DNA of 64,000 bases, from positions 124,001-188,000 of the forward strand of contig JAAZYR010000003.1 in the NCBI GenBank assembly GCA_014239555.1, read 5' to 3'. Positions 46,159 to 56,441 of this stretch are shown here, piece after piece. The stretch comes from Acidimicrobiales bacterium. GTDB taxonomy: Bacteria > Actinomycetota > Acidimicrobiia > Acidimicrobiales > Poriferisodalaceae. The stretch's first letter is position 1. Each line of letters opens with the position of its first letter. The notes under the pieces are model-generated. The model was not told the DNA's origin and ran no database searches. It was given only the letters and a program-made list of their open reading frames with translations. The position numbers and the translations under genes are program-made.

Positions 46159-47220
46159 GTGATCAATCTGGGTCTAATGATCTCCTCAGGTGCGCCCCGG
46201 CGAGCAGGCGGCCCAGATCTTCCGGGTGGTTTCGGCGCTATCGTTGGCCAAGCCCAGTGGGCCGAAGAACACGGGTTTGAAGGAGTCTGGGTCGGCGAAG
46301 GTCGTCTCGCCACCAATGCTGTTGTTGGTATCACCCTCATTGCCGCGAACACGCAACGGATAAAGGTCGGTAGTGGAATACTCCCGTATCGAACTCGTAA
46401 CGCGGCGCTGATGGCGGTTACTTGGAAGACTCTTGATGATTTGGCGCCAGGACGGATGCGACTCGGTCTCGGGGGGTGGTGGGAGCCCCTTGCAACCCGA
46501 TGCGGATTGCCCAACGCTAAACCGTTGAAGGCAATGCGCGAAGTCATCACAGTCACCAAGGGAATGTTGGCCGGTGAGATGGTCACACATCACGGTGAAT
46601 TTGTTGACGTCGACAGCGTGAAGTTTGATGGGCCGACCGACGACGACGGGCGCGCGTATCCGGTTCCGATCTACATCGGGGCGGTACGAATGGGGATGTG
46701 CCGCCTGGCGGGCGAACTTGCCGACGGGGTTCTACTTGATTTTCTCGTACCTCCGTCGTATAACGACCTGGCGATGGCGGCCGTACGCGATGGGGCGAAA
46801 GCATCAGGTCGCTCACTCGATGGTTTTGATGTACCGCAGCTCATAGCCGCGTCTATCGACGATGACGATCCTCAAAAAGCGATTGATGACTGCAAAGAAT
46901 TCCTCACGCAGTACATCGCACAGCAACCTCACATTGCTGAATTCTGTGGTGCTGAACCAGAGTTGGTAGACAGGATCCAATCGATTCTTGGTTGGCCAGC
47001 AACCAAGGCCGAGGTTCGAGATGCCATGGGGCTCGTGTCGAACGAAATAACTCAGCAAGTGGCGGCTTGTGGGACAACTACCCAGGCGCTTGACAAAATA
47101 AATGAATGGAGTGACCACGGCTGCACGGAAGCTGTGATTACCCCGCTTGGCGCTGATGCGTTTGGAACTCTTGACCAACTTGCCGCTAAAGCGAATCTCA
47201 AGAAACTAGGAGCTACCTGA
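46159..47220 (+). CDS. LLM class flavin/F420-dependent oxidoreductase
   Basis: 353 residues, luciferase-like barrel. Family features: AEEHGFEGVWVGEGRL, KVGSGILPYRTRNAALMAVTWKTLDDLAPGRMRLGLGGWW. It lies one base before the amidohydrolase gene and ten bases after MmgE/PrpD, in a true operon. It could be a monooxygenase (like RutA) or an F420H2-dependent reductase. The cofactor cannot be read from sequence. Confidence 0.87.
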   Translation: MINLGLMISSGAPRRAGGPDLPGGFGAIVGQAQWAEEHGFEGVWVGEGRLATNAVVGITLIAANTQRIKVGSGILPYRTRNAALMAVTWKTLDDLAPGRMRLGLGGWWEPLATRCGLPNAKPLKAMREVITVTKGMLAGEMVTHHGEFVDVDSVKFDGPTDDDGRAYPVPIYIGAVRMGMCRLAGELADGVLLDFLVPPSYNDLAMAAVRDGAKASGRSLDGFDVPQLIAASIDDDDPQKAIDDCKEFLTQYIAQQPHIAEFCGAEPELVDRIQSILGWPATKAEVRDAMGLVSNEITQQVAACGTTTQALDKINEWSDHGCTEAVITPLGADAFGTLDQLAAKANLKKLGAT

Positions 47221-47221
47221 G

Positions 47222-48052
47222 ATGACCGAAACCGTGAGATGTGCCCTGATCCAGACCACAGGTATTACACCCCGCGACGAGATGATGGCTCAGCAAACAA
47301 TTCTGATTCGAAACGCCGCCGCTCAAGGTGCGCAGATCATTGGTCTGCAGGAACTTGCCACCGGACCGTACTTTTGCCAGAACGAGTCTGACGAGTGGTT
47401 TGACTTAGCGGAGTCGGTCCCCGATGGGCCAACGACTTCGGAGATGATGGCACTTGCCGCTGAACTCGAGGTGGCGTTAGTGGTGCCTCTGTTCGAGGAA
47501 GATGACAACTTCTTTTACAACACAGCTGTAGTAATCGATGCCGACGGCACGTTTCTTGGTCGCTATCGCAAGACCCACATTCCTTACGCGAAGACCTACC
47601 GGGAGAAGTACTACTTTAAGCCAGGCAATACAGGGTTTCCCGTCTTCTCGACAAGGTTCGCCAAAATCGGGGTGTACATCTGTTACGACCGGCACTTCCC
47701 AGAAGGAGCCCGAGCTTTGGGTAAGAACGGCGCTGAAATAGTGTTTATCCCGTCAGCGACAGGTGGACGATCAAAGCAGTACTGGCACATTGAACAACGG
47801 GGGCACGCTATCGCCAACGGCTACTTCGTCGCGACGAGTAATCGAGTGGGTAAGGAGTCCACAGGCCCCAATGAGTTCTATGGGCATAGCTACTTTTGTG
47901 ACCCTTACGGCCGGATTCTCTCGGAAGCTGGTGAAGAAGAAGAGGTCCTGATCGCTGATATTGATCTGTCATCTCTCCGAGCTACCCATGTCGACATGCC
48001 ATTCTGGCGCGACCGCCGTCCCGAAACCTACGACGACCTAACTGCGAAATAA
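47222..48052 (+). CDS. Carbon-nitrogen hydrolase, N-carbamoyl amidohydrolase type
   Basis: 276 residues, nitrilase superfamily with the Glu-Lys-Cys triad E44, K117 and C154 (VYICYDRHFPE). The sequence around the cysteine, the YWHIEQRGHAIANG helix and the neighbour dihydropyrimidinase point to beta-ureidopropionase or N-carbamoyl-amino-acid hydrolase, releasing CO2 and ammonia. N-carbamoylputrescine amidase is the main alternative. Confidence 0.88.
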   Translation: MTETVRCALIQTTGITPRDEMMAQQTILIRNAAAQGAQIIGLQELATGPYFCQNESDEWFDLAESVPDGPTTSEMMALAAELEVALVVPLFEEDDNFFYNTAVVIDADGTFLGRYRKTHIPYAKTYREKYYFKPGNTGFPVFSTRFAKIGVYICYDRHFPEGARALGKNGAEIVFIPSATGGRSKQYWHIEQRGHAIANGYFVATSNRVGKESTGPNEFYGHSYFCDPYGRILSEAGEEEEVLIADIDLSSLRATHVDMPFWRDRRPETYDDLTAK

Positions 48053-48062
48053 AGGACGAGAG

Positions 48063-49466
48063 ATGAGGACCGCGATTACAGGGGGCACTGTCGTTACCGC
48101 TATTGAAACTGTCTTGGCTGATGTGTTAATTGAAGGCGAGATTGTAGTGGGCGTGGTGCACCCCGATAGTGAGATGACACGAACCTTCGCTGAGGGCGCC
48201 GATCGGGTGATTGATGCCCAGGGGAAGTTTGTTGTGCCAGGCGGCATTGATGCTCATACGCATTTACAGGCGACTGGCCAGATAGCCCCTGTTCTTGAAA
48301 CGTTTGAAACGGGTACCGTCGCGTCGGCGTTTGGTGGGACGACAACCATCATCGATTTCGCTTTCATGAGTGGCGATGAGCGGCTACCAGACGGCTACGA
48401 ACGCCACCGAGAAAACGCTGCTGGCGAATGTGCGGTGGACTATGGATTCCACATCATGGTGGCCAATGTTGATGAGCAGTCTCCAAAGGAGATGGACCTA
48501 CTTGTTCGAGAAGGAGTCACCAGTTTTAAGATGTTTATGGCTTACCCGGGCCGGGTTTATTCCGACGATGGTCAGATCCTTCGCATGATGCAACAGGCAG
48601 CCGAGAATGGCTCCTTGATTCAGATGCATGCTGAGAACGGGATAGCGATTGATGTCCTAAGAGAACAGGCTGCCGAGCGCGGCGATATTGAACCGCTGTT
48701 CCATGGGGTTACCCGCACCCCGATACTTGAGGCTGAAGCTGTGCATCGTGCCATCGCCCTGTCCGAAGTTGCTGGCTCGCCGCTTTATATCGTTCACTTG
48801 TCCTCTTCAAACGCACTTGAAGAAGTCGTAGCTGCTCGAGATCGTGGGCTTAATGTTTTCGCGGAGACGTGCCCTCAATACCTGTTTCTTGACCTCAGTG
48901 ACTTGGATCGACCCGATTTCGAGGGTTCAAAATTCGTGTGTTCACCGCCACTCCGACCTCAAGAACATCAGGACCATCTGTGGCGAGGGCTGCGTACCAA
49001 CGACCTGCAAGTAGTCGCTACTGACCATTGCCCATTTTGTTGGGAGCAAAGAGAAATAGGGAGAAATGATTTTCGGAGTATCCCTAATGGTTTACCTACC
49101 TTGGAACACCGGATGGAGTTGATGTTCCAAGGCGCTGTTGCGGAAGGACGACTGTCACTTAATCGTTGGGTGGATATGTGTTCCCGAGCGCCAGCAAAAA
49201 TGTTTGGTCTTTATCCTCGAAAGGGAACTATTGCACCGGGTTCAGATGCTGACATCGTTGTCTTCGATCCGAACAGTCCACACACACTGTCTGTTGAAAC
49301 CCACCATATGAATGTCGACTACTCCTGCTATGAGGGCATGAGGATGACTGGCCAGGTTGAGAAAGTGCTCTTGCGTGGCAAGGTTGTCGTTGACGGCACT
49401 GAATACTTAGGGACAAAAGGTGACGGTCAGTATCTTCCGCGAGATATCTGTTCCAATTTGCTTTGA
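48063..49466 (+). CDS. Dihydropyrimidinase / hydantoinase
   Basis: 467 residues, metal-dependent cyclic amidohydrolase. Metal ligands H65 and H67 (GIDAHTHLQ), a carbamylated lysine K156 (SFKMFMAYPG), further ligands in QMHAENG and IVHLSSS, and aspartate in VATDHCPF. It opens dihydrouracil- or hydantoin-type rings to N-carbamoyl acids, which the adjacent amidohydrolase can cleave. Last gene of the operon that begins at 42642. Confidence 0.93.
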   Translation: MRTAITGGTVVTAIETVLADVLIEGEIVVGVVHPDSEMTRTFAEGADRVIDAQGKFVVPGGIDAHTHLQATGQIAPVLETFETGTVASAFGGTTTIIDFAFMSGDERLPDGYERHRENAAGECAVDYGFHIMVANVDEQSPKEMDLLVREGVTSFKMFMAYPGRVYSDDGQILRMMQQAAENGSLIQMHAENGIAIDVLREQAAERGDIEPLFHGVTRTPILEAEAVHRAIALSEVAGSPLYIVHLSSSNALEEVVAARDRGLNVFAETCPQYLFLDLSDLDRPDFEGSKFVCSPPLRPQEHQDHLWRGLRTNDLQVVATDHCPFCWEQREIGRNDFRSIPNGLPTLEHRMELMFQGAVAEGRLSLNRWVDMCSRAPAKMFGLYPRKGTIAPGSDADIVVFDPNSPHTLSVETHHMNVDYSCYEGMRMTGQVEKVLLRGKVVVDGTEYLGTKGDGQYLPRDICSNLL

Positions 49467-52066: not shown

Positions 52067-52300
52067 AACCTCATTTTGCCTTGTTGTGCATGTCGACGCG
52101 GCTCCGAATCAAACATGCAGCACCTGTCAGCACGTATAGCGAGGTCCTTTCGGGACTAAACAGCGGGTTTCCATCCTCGAATTGTTGCTTGTGTCACCTA
52201 CTTGTGGAGCACCGAAGAATGGCATCAGAAAGGATGTAGTGGGGATTAGAACGCACCAGTGCTCAGGCGAGGCTTGGGCCGCAGGTGCAATGATGGGGTG

Positions 52301-53125
52301 ATGACCGATCGCTCCTACGTCAGTTTGACCTTCGACGTCGACACCATCTCCCTTTGGATGAGTCGGCAAGATCGCACCGCGTTCAGCCGAGGCGAATTTG
52401 GGGTCGTGGGTGCTCGTCGCATACTCAAACTTCTTGGTTCACGGTCGATACACGCAACTTTTTTTGTTCCAGGAGTAACGGCTTCAACATATCCAGACCT
52501 CCTAGAGGAAATTGTTGACGGTGGCCACGAGGTGGGTCATCACGGAAACCACCACGAAAACCCTGCACGGCTCGAACGCGACGACGAAAAGCGAGTCCTT
52601 GAGGAAGGCCTAGCGATCCTTGAAGGTATGACCGGCAGACGACCGGTGGGCTGGCGGTCCCCAGGTGGGTATGTGACTAGTAGCACTTTCGAGCTGCTCA
52701 TCGAAGCTGGGTTCTCATATGACTCGTCATTAATGGGCCATGACGTGCGTCCTTACTGGTGCCGGCTGAACGACCGATGGGTAAAAAACGAAGGTGTTGA
52801 ATGGGGAGAAGAAGTCGATTTAGTTGAGTTGCCCTGGGCCTGGCACCTCGATGACTTCCCATGGTTCGAGTACATCCCACCTCAAGGAGGCAACCTGACA
52901 GCTCCATCGGCGGTTCTCGAAACCTGGCTCGGCGACCTGGACTGGGCGCTTGCACATGAGCCGGGTGGGGTATTGACATACACGATGCATCCCCAAGTCA
53001 TCGGGCGAGGTAATCGAATGCTCATGCTTGAACAACTTCTCGACGAGGTCGAGAAGCGTGGTGTGGGATTCACGACCCTCGAAGACGCCGCTACCAACTG
53101 GCGGGCTGCCCATCCATTTAGCTGA
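52301..53125 (+). CDS. Polysaccharide-deacetylase-fold hydrolase (possible cyclic imide hydrolase or deacetylase)
   Basis: 274 residues, NodB-type barrel. Metal ligands: aspartates in LTFDVD (12-14) and histidines in GHHGNHHEN (80-85). FVPGVTASTYPDLLEEIVDGGHEVGHHG is the NodB core. There is no signal peptide, and the same fold includes allantoinase PuuE and bacterial cyclic imide hydrolases; that function fits the neighbours better than polysaccharide deacetylation. ATG 52301 chosen over a longer frame. Confidence 0.82.
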   Translation: MTDRSYVSLTFDVDTISLWMSRQDRTAFSRGEFGVVGARRILKLLGSRSIHATFFVPGVTASTYPDLLEEIVDGGHEVGHHGNHHENPARLERDDEKRVLEEGLAILEGMTGRRPVGWRSPGGYVTSSTFELLIEAGFSYDSSLMGHDVRPYWCRLNDRWVKNEGVEWGEEVDLVELPWAWHLDDFPWFEYIPPQGGNLTAPSAVLETWLGDLDWALAHEPGGVLTYTMHPQVIGRGNRMLMLEQLLDEVEKRGVGFTTLEDAATNWRAAHPFS

Positions 53126-53196
53126 ATTTCAGGCACAACTGACGTTGTTGTCTCGACGAGATGTTTGGTTAGACGACGTGAGTTGAGTCAGTTCAT

Positions 53197-53209: not shown

Positions 53210-53860
53210 GTGGAGCCGCTGCTTGTTTTAACTATTGGCCAAGCGCCTCGAGATGACATCGAAAAAGAACTCCGCCAAGTATTGGGAGCGCGACCTATCG
53301 AGGTCCGTGGCGCACTCGATGGGTTATCTACCGACGAAATCGCACACCTTGCCCCTCAGAATGCATCTGACACCTTTCACACTCGTCTCGCCAACGGCGC
53401 CGATGTGATGATTTCCAAGCGGGCCGCCACCATTCGTCTACAAGAATTACTTATAGAGAGGGAGAGTCGCCCAGTGTTGGTTGCCTGCACAGGTAAATTC
53501 ACCGGACTCCCGGACTACCCGAACGTGTTGTTCCCTTCAACGATTCTTGAAGGTGTTGTGGACGCTGTCGCTCCTGCCGAGTGCACTTTGGGAGTGTTGG
53601 TGCCCTTGGCGGAGCAGGTCGAGTCGTTAGCTCAACAATGGCAACGATCTGATCGAGAAGTAGTGGTTGCTGCCGTGAAGCCAGGCGAAGACCCCACAGC
53701 AGCAGCAGCCATACTGGCTGGAGCCGAAGTAGACCTTGTCGTACTCGACTGTTTCGGATACGAGACGTCATTATTGAACCAAGTTCGCGAAACAACCGGA
53801 GTGCCGGTTCTCTCAGCCGTCCGATGCACCGCACACATCGCCTCAGAGCTGCTTGGATGA
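53210..53860 (+). CDS. AroM family protein (Asp/Glu/hydantoin-racemase-like)
   Basis: 216 residues. MEPLLVLTIGQAPRDD is the AroM start. Two cysteines are at racemase-like places: C93 in VLVACTGKF and C181 in LVVLDCFGYE, resembling the CNT and GCT motifs of aspartate/glutamate/hydantoin racemases. E. coli AroM, of unknown role, keeps only the second as I recall its sequence. With the neighbours, a hydantoin or imide racemase is a plausible guess. Upstream TTG codons (53165, 53183) are in frame but less likely. Confidence 0.8.
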   Translation: MEPLLVLTIGQAPRDDIEKELRQVLGARPIEVRGALDGLSTDEIAHLAPQNASDTFHTRLANGADVMISKRAATIRLQELLIERESRPVLVACTGKFTGLPDYPNVLFPSTILEGVVDAVAPAECTLGVLVPLAEQVESLAQQWQRSDREVVVAAVKPGEDPTAAAAILAGAEVDLVVLDCFGYETSLLNQVRETTGVPVLSAVRCTAHIASELLG

Positions 53861-54933
53861 CCCGCAACTTGGACGCGACAGACGTCGACGATCTCGCTGT
53901 TGGTGCCTGGATCCTCGGGACTGGAGGGGGAGGAAACCCCTACCTCAACCACCTCAACATGCAACAAATAGCTGCCACAGGCACACAGTTTGAGTTAATT
54001 GACCCTCAAGAATTAGATGACGACGCTCAGGTTGCGGTGGTGTCCACCATGGGCGCACCACTGGTGATGCAGGAACGCCTCCAAGATGCACGCGATGTAG
54101 CCCGGGTAGTGGAGATAATGAGCGAGTACTTAGGGGCATCGTTCGACGCGGTCATGGCGACTGAAATTGGCGGGTCCAACGCCTTTCAACCCTTAATGGC
54201 GGCCGCTCACCTTGGTTTACCAATCGTCGATGCAGATGCCATGGGGAGGGCTTACCCGGAAGCACAAATGACGAGTTTCGCTATCGGTGGTCTTCAACCC
54301 TGGCCGCTGGCGCTCGTGGACCCGCGGGGGATCGAAGCTGTTATTACAAACGTCCCCACGTGGAAGTGGATGGAACGAACCAGTCGTGTACTTACTATCG
54401 AAACGGGTTCGATGGCCGCGACCTGTAAGGCCCCGAGAAGTGGAGCTGAGGTCAAACGCTGGGGCGTAGCGAATTCAATGAGTTTCGCGATCCAACTTGG
54501 GGCCAGAGTCCGAGAAGCACGCGCCGCTCACGAGGACCCGGTGGCAGCTATCTGCGCTGCAGCCGAGGGCCAACTGATTTTTACCGGCAAAATTATCGAT
54601 GTTGATCGACGCACAACGGGTGGCTTTCTCCGCGGCACAGCCAAACTCGATGGGTTGGACGAATATTCCGGATACCACGTCGAACTTGACTTTCAGAACG
54701 AATGGTTGGTCGCGCGTCTTGGAGACCAGGTCATCGCGACCGTGCCTCACCTCATTTGCTTGCTCGACGCAACTTCAGGTGAGGCAATCGGGACAGAGAC
54801 AGCCCGTTACGGTCAACGGGTGGCTCTCATCGGCATTACCGCGCCGGCTCTGTTCCTGAGCCCGGCGGGTCTCAAATATGTAGGGCCCCGTGCGATGGGA
54901 TACGACCTTGACCCCGTGGACCCCTGCCCATGA
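53857..54933 (+). CDS. DUF917 family protein
   Basis: 358 residues. Starts with GAWILGTGGGGNPY, the family's glycine-rich motif, and shows VVSTMGAPLVMQERL, then ATEIGGSNAFQPL. DUF917 proteins usually lie beside hydantoinase/oxoprolinase genes, as here. The function is unknown. ATGA overlap with AroM gene. Confidence 0.88.
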   Translation: MTRNLDATDVDDLAVGAWILGTGGGGNPYLNHLNMQQIAATGTQFELIDPQELDDDAQVAVVSTMGAPLVMQERLQDARDVARVVEIMSEYLGASFDAVMATEIGGSNAFQPLMAAAHLGLPIVDADAMGRAYPEAQMTSFAIGGLQPWPLALVDPRGIEAVITNVPTWKWMERTSRVLTIETGSMAATCKAPRSGAEVKRWGVANSMSFAIQLGARVREARAAHEDPVAAICAAAEGQLIFTGKIIDVDRRTTGGFLRGTAKLDGLDEYSGYHVELDFQNEWLVARLGDQVIATVPHLICLLDATSGEAIGTETARYGQRVALIGITAPALFLSPAGLKYVGPRAMGYDLDPVDPCP

Positions 54934-56441
54934 GACGAATCGGTATTGACGTTGGAGGTACTAACACTGACGGGGCGCTACTTGATGGCGTCGAAGTAGT
55001 CGAGACCATCAAGACACCAACAACCGACGATGTATTAAGTGGCATCCAAAAAGTTCTCGAAGGTCTTTCTCACCATGACATCGGAGCCGTAGTAATTGGC
55101 ACAACCCAGTTCACCAACGCAGTTGTCCAACGAAGCCAGTTAAACCAGGTCGGATTCTTGCGAATTGGGTTACCAGCTGGCCGGTCACTGCCCCCACTCG
55201 TTGGCTGGCCCCCCGATCTCGCTGAAGTGGTCCGAGGCAAAACGTTGATGGTACGAGGCGGCATCGAATACGACGGACGTCCCTTCGAAGAACTAGACGA
55301 ACCAGCTGTGATTGAGGCCGCTCACCAGTTCGCTGACCTGGGCAATAACGCCATAGTGATTGCGGGCAGCTTCTCACCTATCGACACTCGTCAAGAAGAT
55401 CGAGCCGCCGAAATCATTTCGGAATACCACCCAAAGGCCCAAATCACAGTGTCTCACCGCCTTGGCCAACTTGGTCTGTTGGAACGAGAAAATGCAGCAG
55501 GTTTGAACGCTTGCCTATTAGAACTCGCTGGATCAGTCATCTCAGCTTTCGCGTCTGCGATTGACCAGATTGGTTTCGGATCTGGCACCCGTTTATTTTT
55601 GACCCAAAACAACGGCACCCTTCTCCAAGTGGAGGAGGCAGCCAAGTATCCGGTCCTCACGTTCGCGTCGGGTCCCACCAACTCCATGAGAGGCGCAGCT
55701 GCCCTCGGAGGCGTAACCGATGGGCTTGTTGTTGATGTTGGCGGAACTACAGCGGACTTCGGGGCACTTGTGTCGGGTTACCCCCGACAAGCCAACGCCG
55801 CAGTGGAAGTCGGTGGGGTGCGCACTTTATTTCAACTTCCCGACGTCCTTTCGATTGGGCTAGGTGGCGGAAGCCAAATCCATCTGAACCCCCTAGGACT
55901 CGGCCCAGACAGCGTCGGGCAGCGGCTATCTACCGAGGCACTCGCCTTCGGCGGTTCCGTCCCAACGCTTACCGACGCCGCCATAGCAGCAGGGCTATTG
56001 AAAATCGATGGGACGTCACGCCCAGATCTACCGAATGCTGACGAAATTCTTGCTCACGCAGCAACGATGATCGTCGGAGGCGCTGATCGGATGAAACTTT
56101 CCTCCGACGAAGTGCCCTTGATAGCAGTTGGTGGCGGAGCTTTTGCAGTGTCGGACACTATGCAGGGCATAAGTGAGGTGGTCCGACCTGGCTACGGTGA
56201 CACTGCGAACGCAATTGGGGCTGCTTTGGCTGAAGTCAGTGGCGGTGTTGACCGAGTTTTCCAAGGTATGGGGCACGACGCTGCGGTCGCCGAAGCTATT
56301 CAAATAGCGACTGAAGATGCCGTGACCTCGGGAGCTGATCCGTCACTGGTTGAGGTCATCGAGGTGGAAGACCTACCCATTGCTTATCTACCTGGCGACG
56401 CTCGGCGTGTTCGAGCTCGTGTCGTCGGTCCTCTCAAATAG
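54930..56441 (+). CDS. Hydantoinase/oxoprolinase HyuA-like protein
   Basis: 503 residues. The start MRRIGIDVGGTNTDGALLDG is the ATP-binding actin-like fold of hydantoinase/oxoprolinase A; VVIGTTQFTNAVVQR and LVVDVGGTTADFG follow. Such proteins split 5-oxoproline, N-methylhydantoin or acetophenone-type substrates with ATP. No HyuB partner is present; in this single-gene arrangement DUF917 is the partner. Overlaps DUF917 by four bases. Confidence 0.9.
   Translation: MRRIGIDVGGTNTDGALLDGVEVVETIKTPTTDDVLSGIQKVLEGLSHHDIGAVVIGTTQFTNAVVQRSQLNQVGFLRIGLPAGRSLPPLVGWPPDLAEVVRGKTLMVRGGIEYDGRPFEELDEPAVIEAAHQFADLGNNAIVIAGSFSPIDTRQEDRAAEIISEYHPKAQITVSHRLGQLGLLERENAAGLNACLLELAGSVISAFASAIDQIGFGSGTRLFLTQNNGTLLQVEEAAKYPVLTFASGPTNSMRGAAALGGVTDGLVVDVGGTTADFGALVSGYPRQANAAVEVGGVRTLFQLPDVLSIGLGGGSQIHLNPLGLGPDSVGQRLSTEALAFGGSVPTLTDAAIAAGLLKIDGTSRPDLPNADEILAHAATMIVGGADRMKLSSDEVPLIAVGGGAFAVSDTMQGISEVVRPGYGDTANAIGAALAEVSGGVDRVFQGMGHDAAVAEAIQIATEDAVTSGADPSLVEVIEVEDLPIAYLPGDARRVRARVVGPLK

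Follow-up and report, generated by a model that had tools for sequence, protein, structure and literature searches.

A candidate cysteine-pair racemase of the AroM family beside DUF917 and HyuA genes in a marine actinobacterium, and its cysteine-less LuxR-fused relatives

The window analyzed here, a stretch of 64,000 nucleotides from an acidimicrobial genome, encodes an AroM family protein. On the best reading, this protein works without a cofactor and uses two cysteines to racemize or epimerize a ring compound resembling a hydantoin, imide or diketopiperazine. For stand-alone AroM proteins in general, the probability that they are Cys/Cys racemases or epimerases is put at roughly 0.7. In this marine actinobacterium the enzyme probably inverts the configuration of a ring compound that its partner enzymes go on to open. 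The wider proposal, in which AroM forms a distinct branch of ring-compound racemases and its cysteine-less, LuxR-fused descendants are substrate-sensing regulators of ring-opening genes, is more tentative, with a chance somewhat below even.

The aroM gene (53210–53860, plus strand, as are all features of the window given below) starts with GTG and codes for a protein of 216 aa; an alternative TTG start at 53165 would give 231 aa. In a Pfam profile search the product scored 178.7 bits with PF07302 (cut-off 23.8), covering profile positions 3–219 of 219. Its score with PRK10481.1, the NCBIfam equivalog model of Escherichia coli AroM, was 162.7 bits, less than the 198 required, and by sequence the two proteins are members of one family but of different ortholog groups. 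Close relatives of the window protein are found in Acidimicrobiia. It scored 22 bits with PF01177 (Asp_Glu_race; cut-off 31) and therefore falls outside this Pfam family, while a canonical hydantoin racemase (L141) scored 27.7 bits on the AroM profile, over AroM's own cut-off. Two cysteines about 88 residues apart, C93 in VACTG and C181 in LDCFGYE, had been reported in the earlier note, and both were located with a spacing of 88: the Cys93 codon TGC (53486–53488) follows strand 89–91, and the Cys181 codon TGT (53750–53752, LDCFGY context) follows strand 176–179. The loop T8-I-G-Q-A-P-R-D-D16 after strand 1 (53231–53257) is near-invariant in the AroM alignment and, from its position, is a candidate for substrate binding.

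The AlphaFold2 model of the window protein (68 sequences; mean pLDDT 94.9, pTM 0.89) was compared with known structures by Foldseek and VIA-align. It consists of two pseudo-symmetric alpha/beta halves, as in the Asp/Glu/hydantoin racemase superfamily, and the structural match is collinear along residues 1–216 of the model. Among the 20 Foldseek matches at E ≤ 0.001, 18 are chains with this superfamily fold. AroM has the full-length fold in common with the hydantoin racemase of Pyrococcus horikoshii (2eq5; Z 16.3, rmsd 3.2 over 187 residues) and the allantoin racemase AllR (5lfd; Z 15.2), with an identity of 15–20%. Arylmalonate decarboxylase (Z 15.5) had the lowest Foldseek E-value, 9.4e-7, with maleate isomerase (Z 15.1) close to it, and since these two enzymes are near-tied with the racemases, the fold by itself leaves the reaction undecided. 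An enzyme with this fold could use its cysteines for decarboxylation, like the former, or for C=C isomerization via a covalent cysteine adduct, like the latter.

In profile alignments with four hydantoin-type racemases encoded in AroM clusters, Cys93 falls on their first cysteine and Cys181 on their second, and the same Cys/Cys register was obtained in one hhalign comparison of AroM with 47 hydantoin-type racemases (probability 96.3, E 1.7e-9). Control comparisons with seven unrelated neighbour families gave probabilities of 0.1–1.5. Sequence searches matched the Cys181 region to allantoin and hydantoin racemases, and the second motif L-x-C-x-G is common to both groups. By this register and the predicted strands, one cysteine follows the central strand in either half, as is characteristic of the superfamily. 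However, the signature of hydantoin racemases proper, N-terminal NPNxx and a CxxDPG first motif, is absent, and AroM carries TIGQAPRxD and CTGxF instead. The hydantoin racemases L141–L144 open with INPNSN where AroM has TIGQAPR, the first motif on the racemase side is CFSDPG or CAADPG rather than CTGxF, and the cysteines of the L018 racemase are 99 residues apart versus 88 in AroM.

The AroM alignment takes in enterobacteria, bacilli, alphaproteobacteria, actinobacteria and archaea. Cys occupies the C181 position in all of 110 distinct stand-alone proteins and the C93 position in 107, the other three having Ser there, which gives 107 C/C and three S/C pairs; the mean column identity of the alignment is about 42%, and judged by these counts the conservation of both cysteines exceeds chance. 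Contigs were scanned for AroM with two patterns from a three-sequence alignment, one containing C181 and neither containing C93, so that the scan collection is biased for Cys181 and unbiased for Cys93. All stand-alone proteins found in whole genomes by profile HMM alone, free of this pattern bias, are C/C. The gammaproteobacterial genome sample yielded only the genome on which it was centred.

These counts bear on the use of the fold for decarboxylation or isomerization. The E. coli form with Ser93 would suit such a reaction, as it retains the second cysteine only, the one used by arylmalonate decarboxylase, in which the titles of mutant structures imply Cys188 at the second site and Gly74 at the first. 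Yet the first cysteine that the wild-type decarboxylase lacks is present in 107 of the 110 AroM proteins, both AroM motifs are in register with the hydantoin-type racemase motifs, and the AroM genes lie among ring hydrolases and peptidases, with no malonate or maleate genes. A non-racemase reaction of this kind is considered unlikely, and a racemase is preferred.

Two of the S/C proteins, AroM of E. coli and Enterobacter, belong to the aroL-yaiA-aroM operon; the third is from Lysinibacillus. As stated in the earlier note, E. coli AroM is without the first cysteine: its sequence is LLMSTANI around the first site and LDCLGF around the second. It shares PF07302 and the second cysteine with the window protein but differs from it in Ser at position 93 and in its operon. 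In the tree it is nested among Pantoea and Ewingella proteins of one clade, all of the C/C type. E. coli AroM is thus a derived exception at the first cysteine, with C93 as the family norm, which means that C93 does not single out the window gene. Replacement of one catalytic cysteine by a hydroxyl residue has a precedent in the Asp/Glu racemase EcL-DER, where Thr takes its place (PMC8142540); its Cys/Thr pair may be compared with Ser93 of E. coli AroM, although EcL-DER acts on Asp/Glu and has little sequence similarity to AroM (5ell, Z 12.1, 10% identity). A restriction of C93 to HyuA-linked AroM proteins was considered and rejected, as DUF1177-linked ones carry it too.

Paired AroM-related paralogs located about 5 kb apart were also observed in four Hyphomicrobiales genomes (L137–L140 and L147–L150). 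They seemingly retain the first cysteine (LMCCAE, LLACAAE) and have WGYGDGL or FGYGIGL where the second cysteine motif would be.

Homologues adjacent to HyuA keep C93 except for those fused to a LuxR-type domain, which look like regulators rather than enzymes. In Shinella, an AroM protein encoded next to DUF917-HyuA is missing both cysteines, and its C-terminal part is a GerE (LuxR-type) HTH domain. This architecture was found in 12 distinct alphaproteobacterial proteins (L021:6910–7800, L023:7965–8915, L088:1202–2158, L111:7986–8900, L114:290–1387 and L120:314–1330, and further in L121, L122, L125, L126, L136 and L151); the GerE domain was confirmed directly by Pfam in 10 of them and by matching tail sequence in the other two. 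Both cysteines are lost in all 12, the replacements being S/S, S/A, T/S or M/S, and P109, P158 and D180 are changed as well, while G10, P13, R14, G34, L36, T94, G95, G128, P132 and Q136 are kept throughout. The genes of 11 fusions are divergently transcribed from a DUF917 gene and the remaining one from a DUF1177 gene. In a quick tree built with the two cysteine columns left out, all fusions fall into a single clade (SH-aLRT 93), so the double loss may be one event; the replacement residues vary within the clade.

The sensor-like appearance of the fusions could mean that AroM is a non-catalytic ligand binder, a sensor or chaperone, throughout the family. This is very improbable, because exactly the fused proteins have lost both cysteines, in contrast to the 107 of 110 stand-alone proteins that keep both, and because a stand-alone C/C AroM is also present in 8 of the 12 fusion-bearing genomes or records. 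The loss of both cysteines with retention of most other invariant residues supports catalysis by stand-alone AroM, as we infer. The simplest reading is that an enzyme was turned into a sensor, with the pocket kept and the acid/base cysteines dropped. The fusions look like ligand-sensing regulators derived from an enzyme and are candidates for a new type of one-component regulator with a dead-racemase sensor domain. Such a fusion probably senses the same ring compound and would control the DUF917-HyuA genes. The racemase-like contexts of the two cysteines, pointed out in the earlier note, are thus supported by fold, register, conservation and loss in the fusions.

Downstream of aroM in the window are genes for a DUF917/S-Me-THD family protein (53857–54933; PF06032, PF20906), a candidate ring hydrolase scoring below the cut-offs of the NCBIfam thiohydantoin desulfurase models, and for a 503-aa protein of the HyuA (hydantoinase/oxoprolinase) family (54930–56441; PF05378, PF01968), which matches N-methylhydantoinase 7hk5 with E 4.5e-28. 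ATGA overlaps join the aroM stop to the DUF917 start (53857–53860) and the DUF917 stop to the hyuA start (54930), and the three genes therefore look translationally coupled. AroM-DUF917-HyuA is also the sole block conserved among the acidimicrobial loci compared. The DUF917 and HyuA neighbours named in the earlier note hold up; the D-hydantoinase is not conserved beside AroM. This enzyme (48–49.5 kb) was rejected as a partner since it is absent in close relatives, and the D-hydantoinase, carbon-nitrogen hydrolase and amidohydrolase genes of the window are mostly missing at other acidimicrobial AroM loci. The D-hydantoinase (TIGR02033, 549 bits, over cut-off) is encoded in one run with a luciferase-like oxidoreductase and a carbon-nitrogen hydrolase (46159–49466), perhaps a pyrimidine or hydantoin breakdown cluster. 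Directly 5' of aroM is a gene for a CE4-type polysaccharide deacetylase or PuuE-allantoinase-like hydrolase (52259–53125; PF01522), which adjoins aroM in some close relatives only. The best match of its product is peptidoglycan deacetylase 3qbu (E 1.4e-46), with PuuE allantoinase 3cl6 at E 2.1e-18; rather than deacetylating the cell wall, it may be a further hydrolase of rings or amides.

Three settings of AroM genes were distinguished. The first, AroM-DUF917-HyuA, occurs in Acidimicrobiia, Salipiger and other alphaproteobacteria. The second, OPT-DUF917-DUF1177-AroM followed by an M29 or PepE peptidase, occurs in bacilli, proteobacteria and archaea, often with a separate hydantoin-type racemase. 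The third is the enterobacterial operon named above. A search of the PDB with DUF1177 gave nothing useful. The peptide transporters and dipeptidases of the second setting would fit cyclic peptide-like substrates as much as hydantoins. The separate racemases, of the C82/C181 type, were seen in L018, L020, L022, L023 and many bacilli; their presence in many AroM clusters implies that AroM is non-redundant with them or does something else, and suggests a pathway with either two stereocentres or two substrates.

In glutamate racemase the catalytic pair is Cys74/Cys185 (PMC8142540). If AroM works like this enzyme and other Cys/Cys racemases, C93 and C181, each just after a strand in one pseudo-symmetric half, would serve as an acid–base pair placed on either side of an acidic C-H in the substrate. 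One thiolate would take the proton and the other thiol would protonate the opposite face. Fitting C-H groups would be the C5-H of a hydantoin or the alpha C-H of a cyclic dipeptide. The ring, most likely hydantoin-, imide- or diketopiperazine-like, would then be opened stereospecifically by the coupled DUF917 and HyuA proteins. That AroM acts on the ring substrate of DUF917 and HyuA, as proposed at the outset, draws its support from gene order, and we infer about an even chance that its substrate in the window operon is the ring they open.

The window genome and five congeners yielded no PF01177 protein above the cut-off, and hence no recognizable glutamate racemase MurI; other genera of the family do have PF01177 proteins. 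D-glutamate must consequently be obtained in some other way; the window genome has three class IV aminotransferases. That AroM stands in for MurI, making D-glutamate for the cell wall, was considered in view of this absence and rejected as extremely improbable, because AroM belongs to the DUF917-HyuA operon and because AroM and PF01177 proteins are both absent from six genomes in its bacterial family, of which four are at least 90% complete, indicating that this lineage can do without both.

The name AroM goes back decades, to the aroL-aroM operon of E. coli (a 1986 paper cited in PMC11055893), and the family is still called uncharacterized. According to passages of PMC11055893, AroM proteins lack experimental characterization, are enriched in cyclodipeptide oxidase clusters alongside DUF917 and PF01177 proteins, thus the same family with the same partners, and have a predicted structure that resembles hydantoin and Asp/Glu racemases, from which isomerase activity was already suggested. 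The idea of a racemase-like AroM beside DUF917 is therefore not new. Those passages make no mention of cysteines, the E. coli exception or LuxR fusions, and no paper came up in a literature search that combined AroM, LuxR and hydantoin. The register and conservation of the cysteines, the derived state of the E. coli protein and the LuxR fusions without the two cysteines appear to be new here, with earlier reports elsewhere possible.

With a proposed catalytic pair, a short list of candidate substrates and a natural Cys-free control, the function of AroM is directly testable, and E. coli AroM is a poor model for the family. If the racemase reading is true, AroM would supply a missing stereochemical step in what may be the degradation of cyclic peptide-like compounds by the DUF917/HyuA and DUF1177/OPT clusters.
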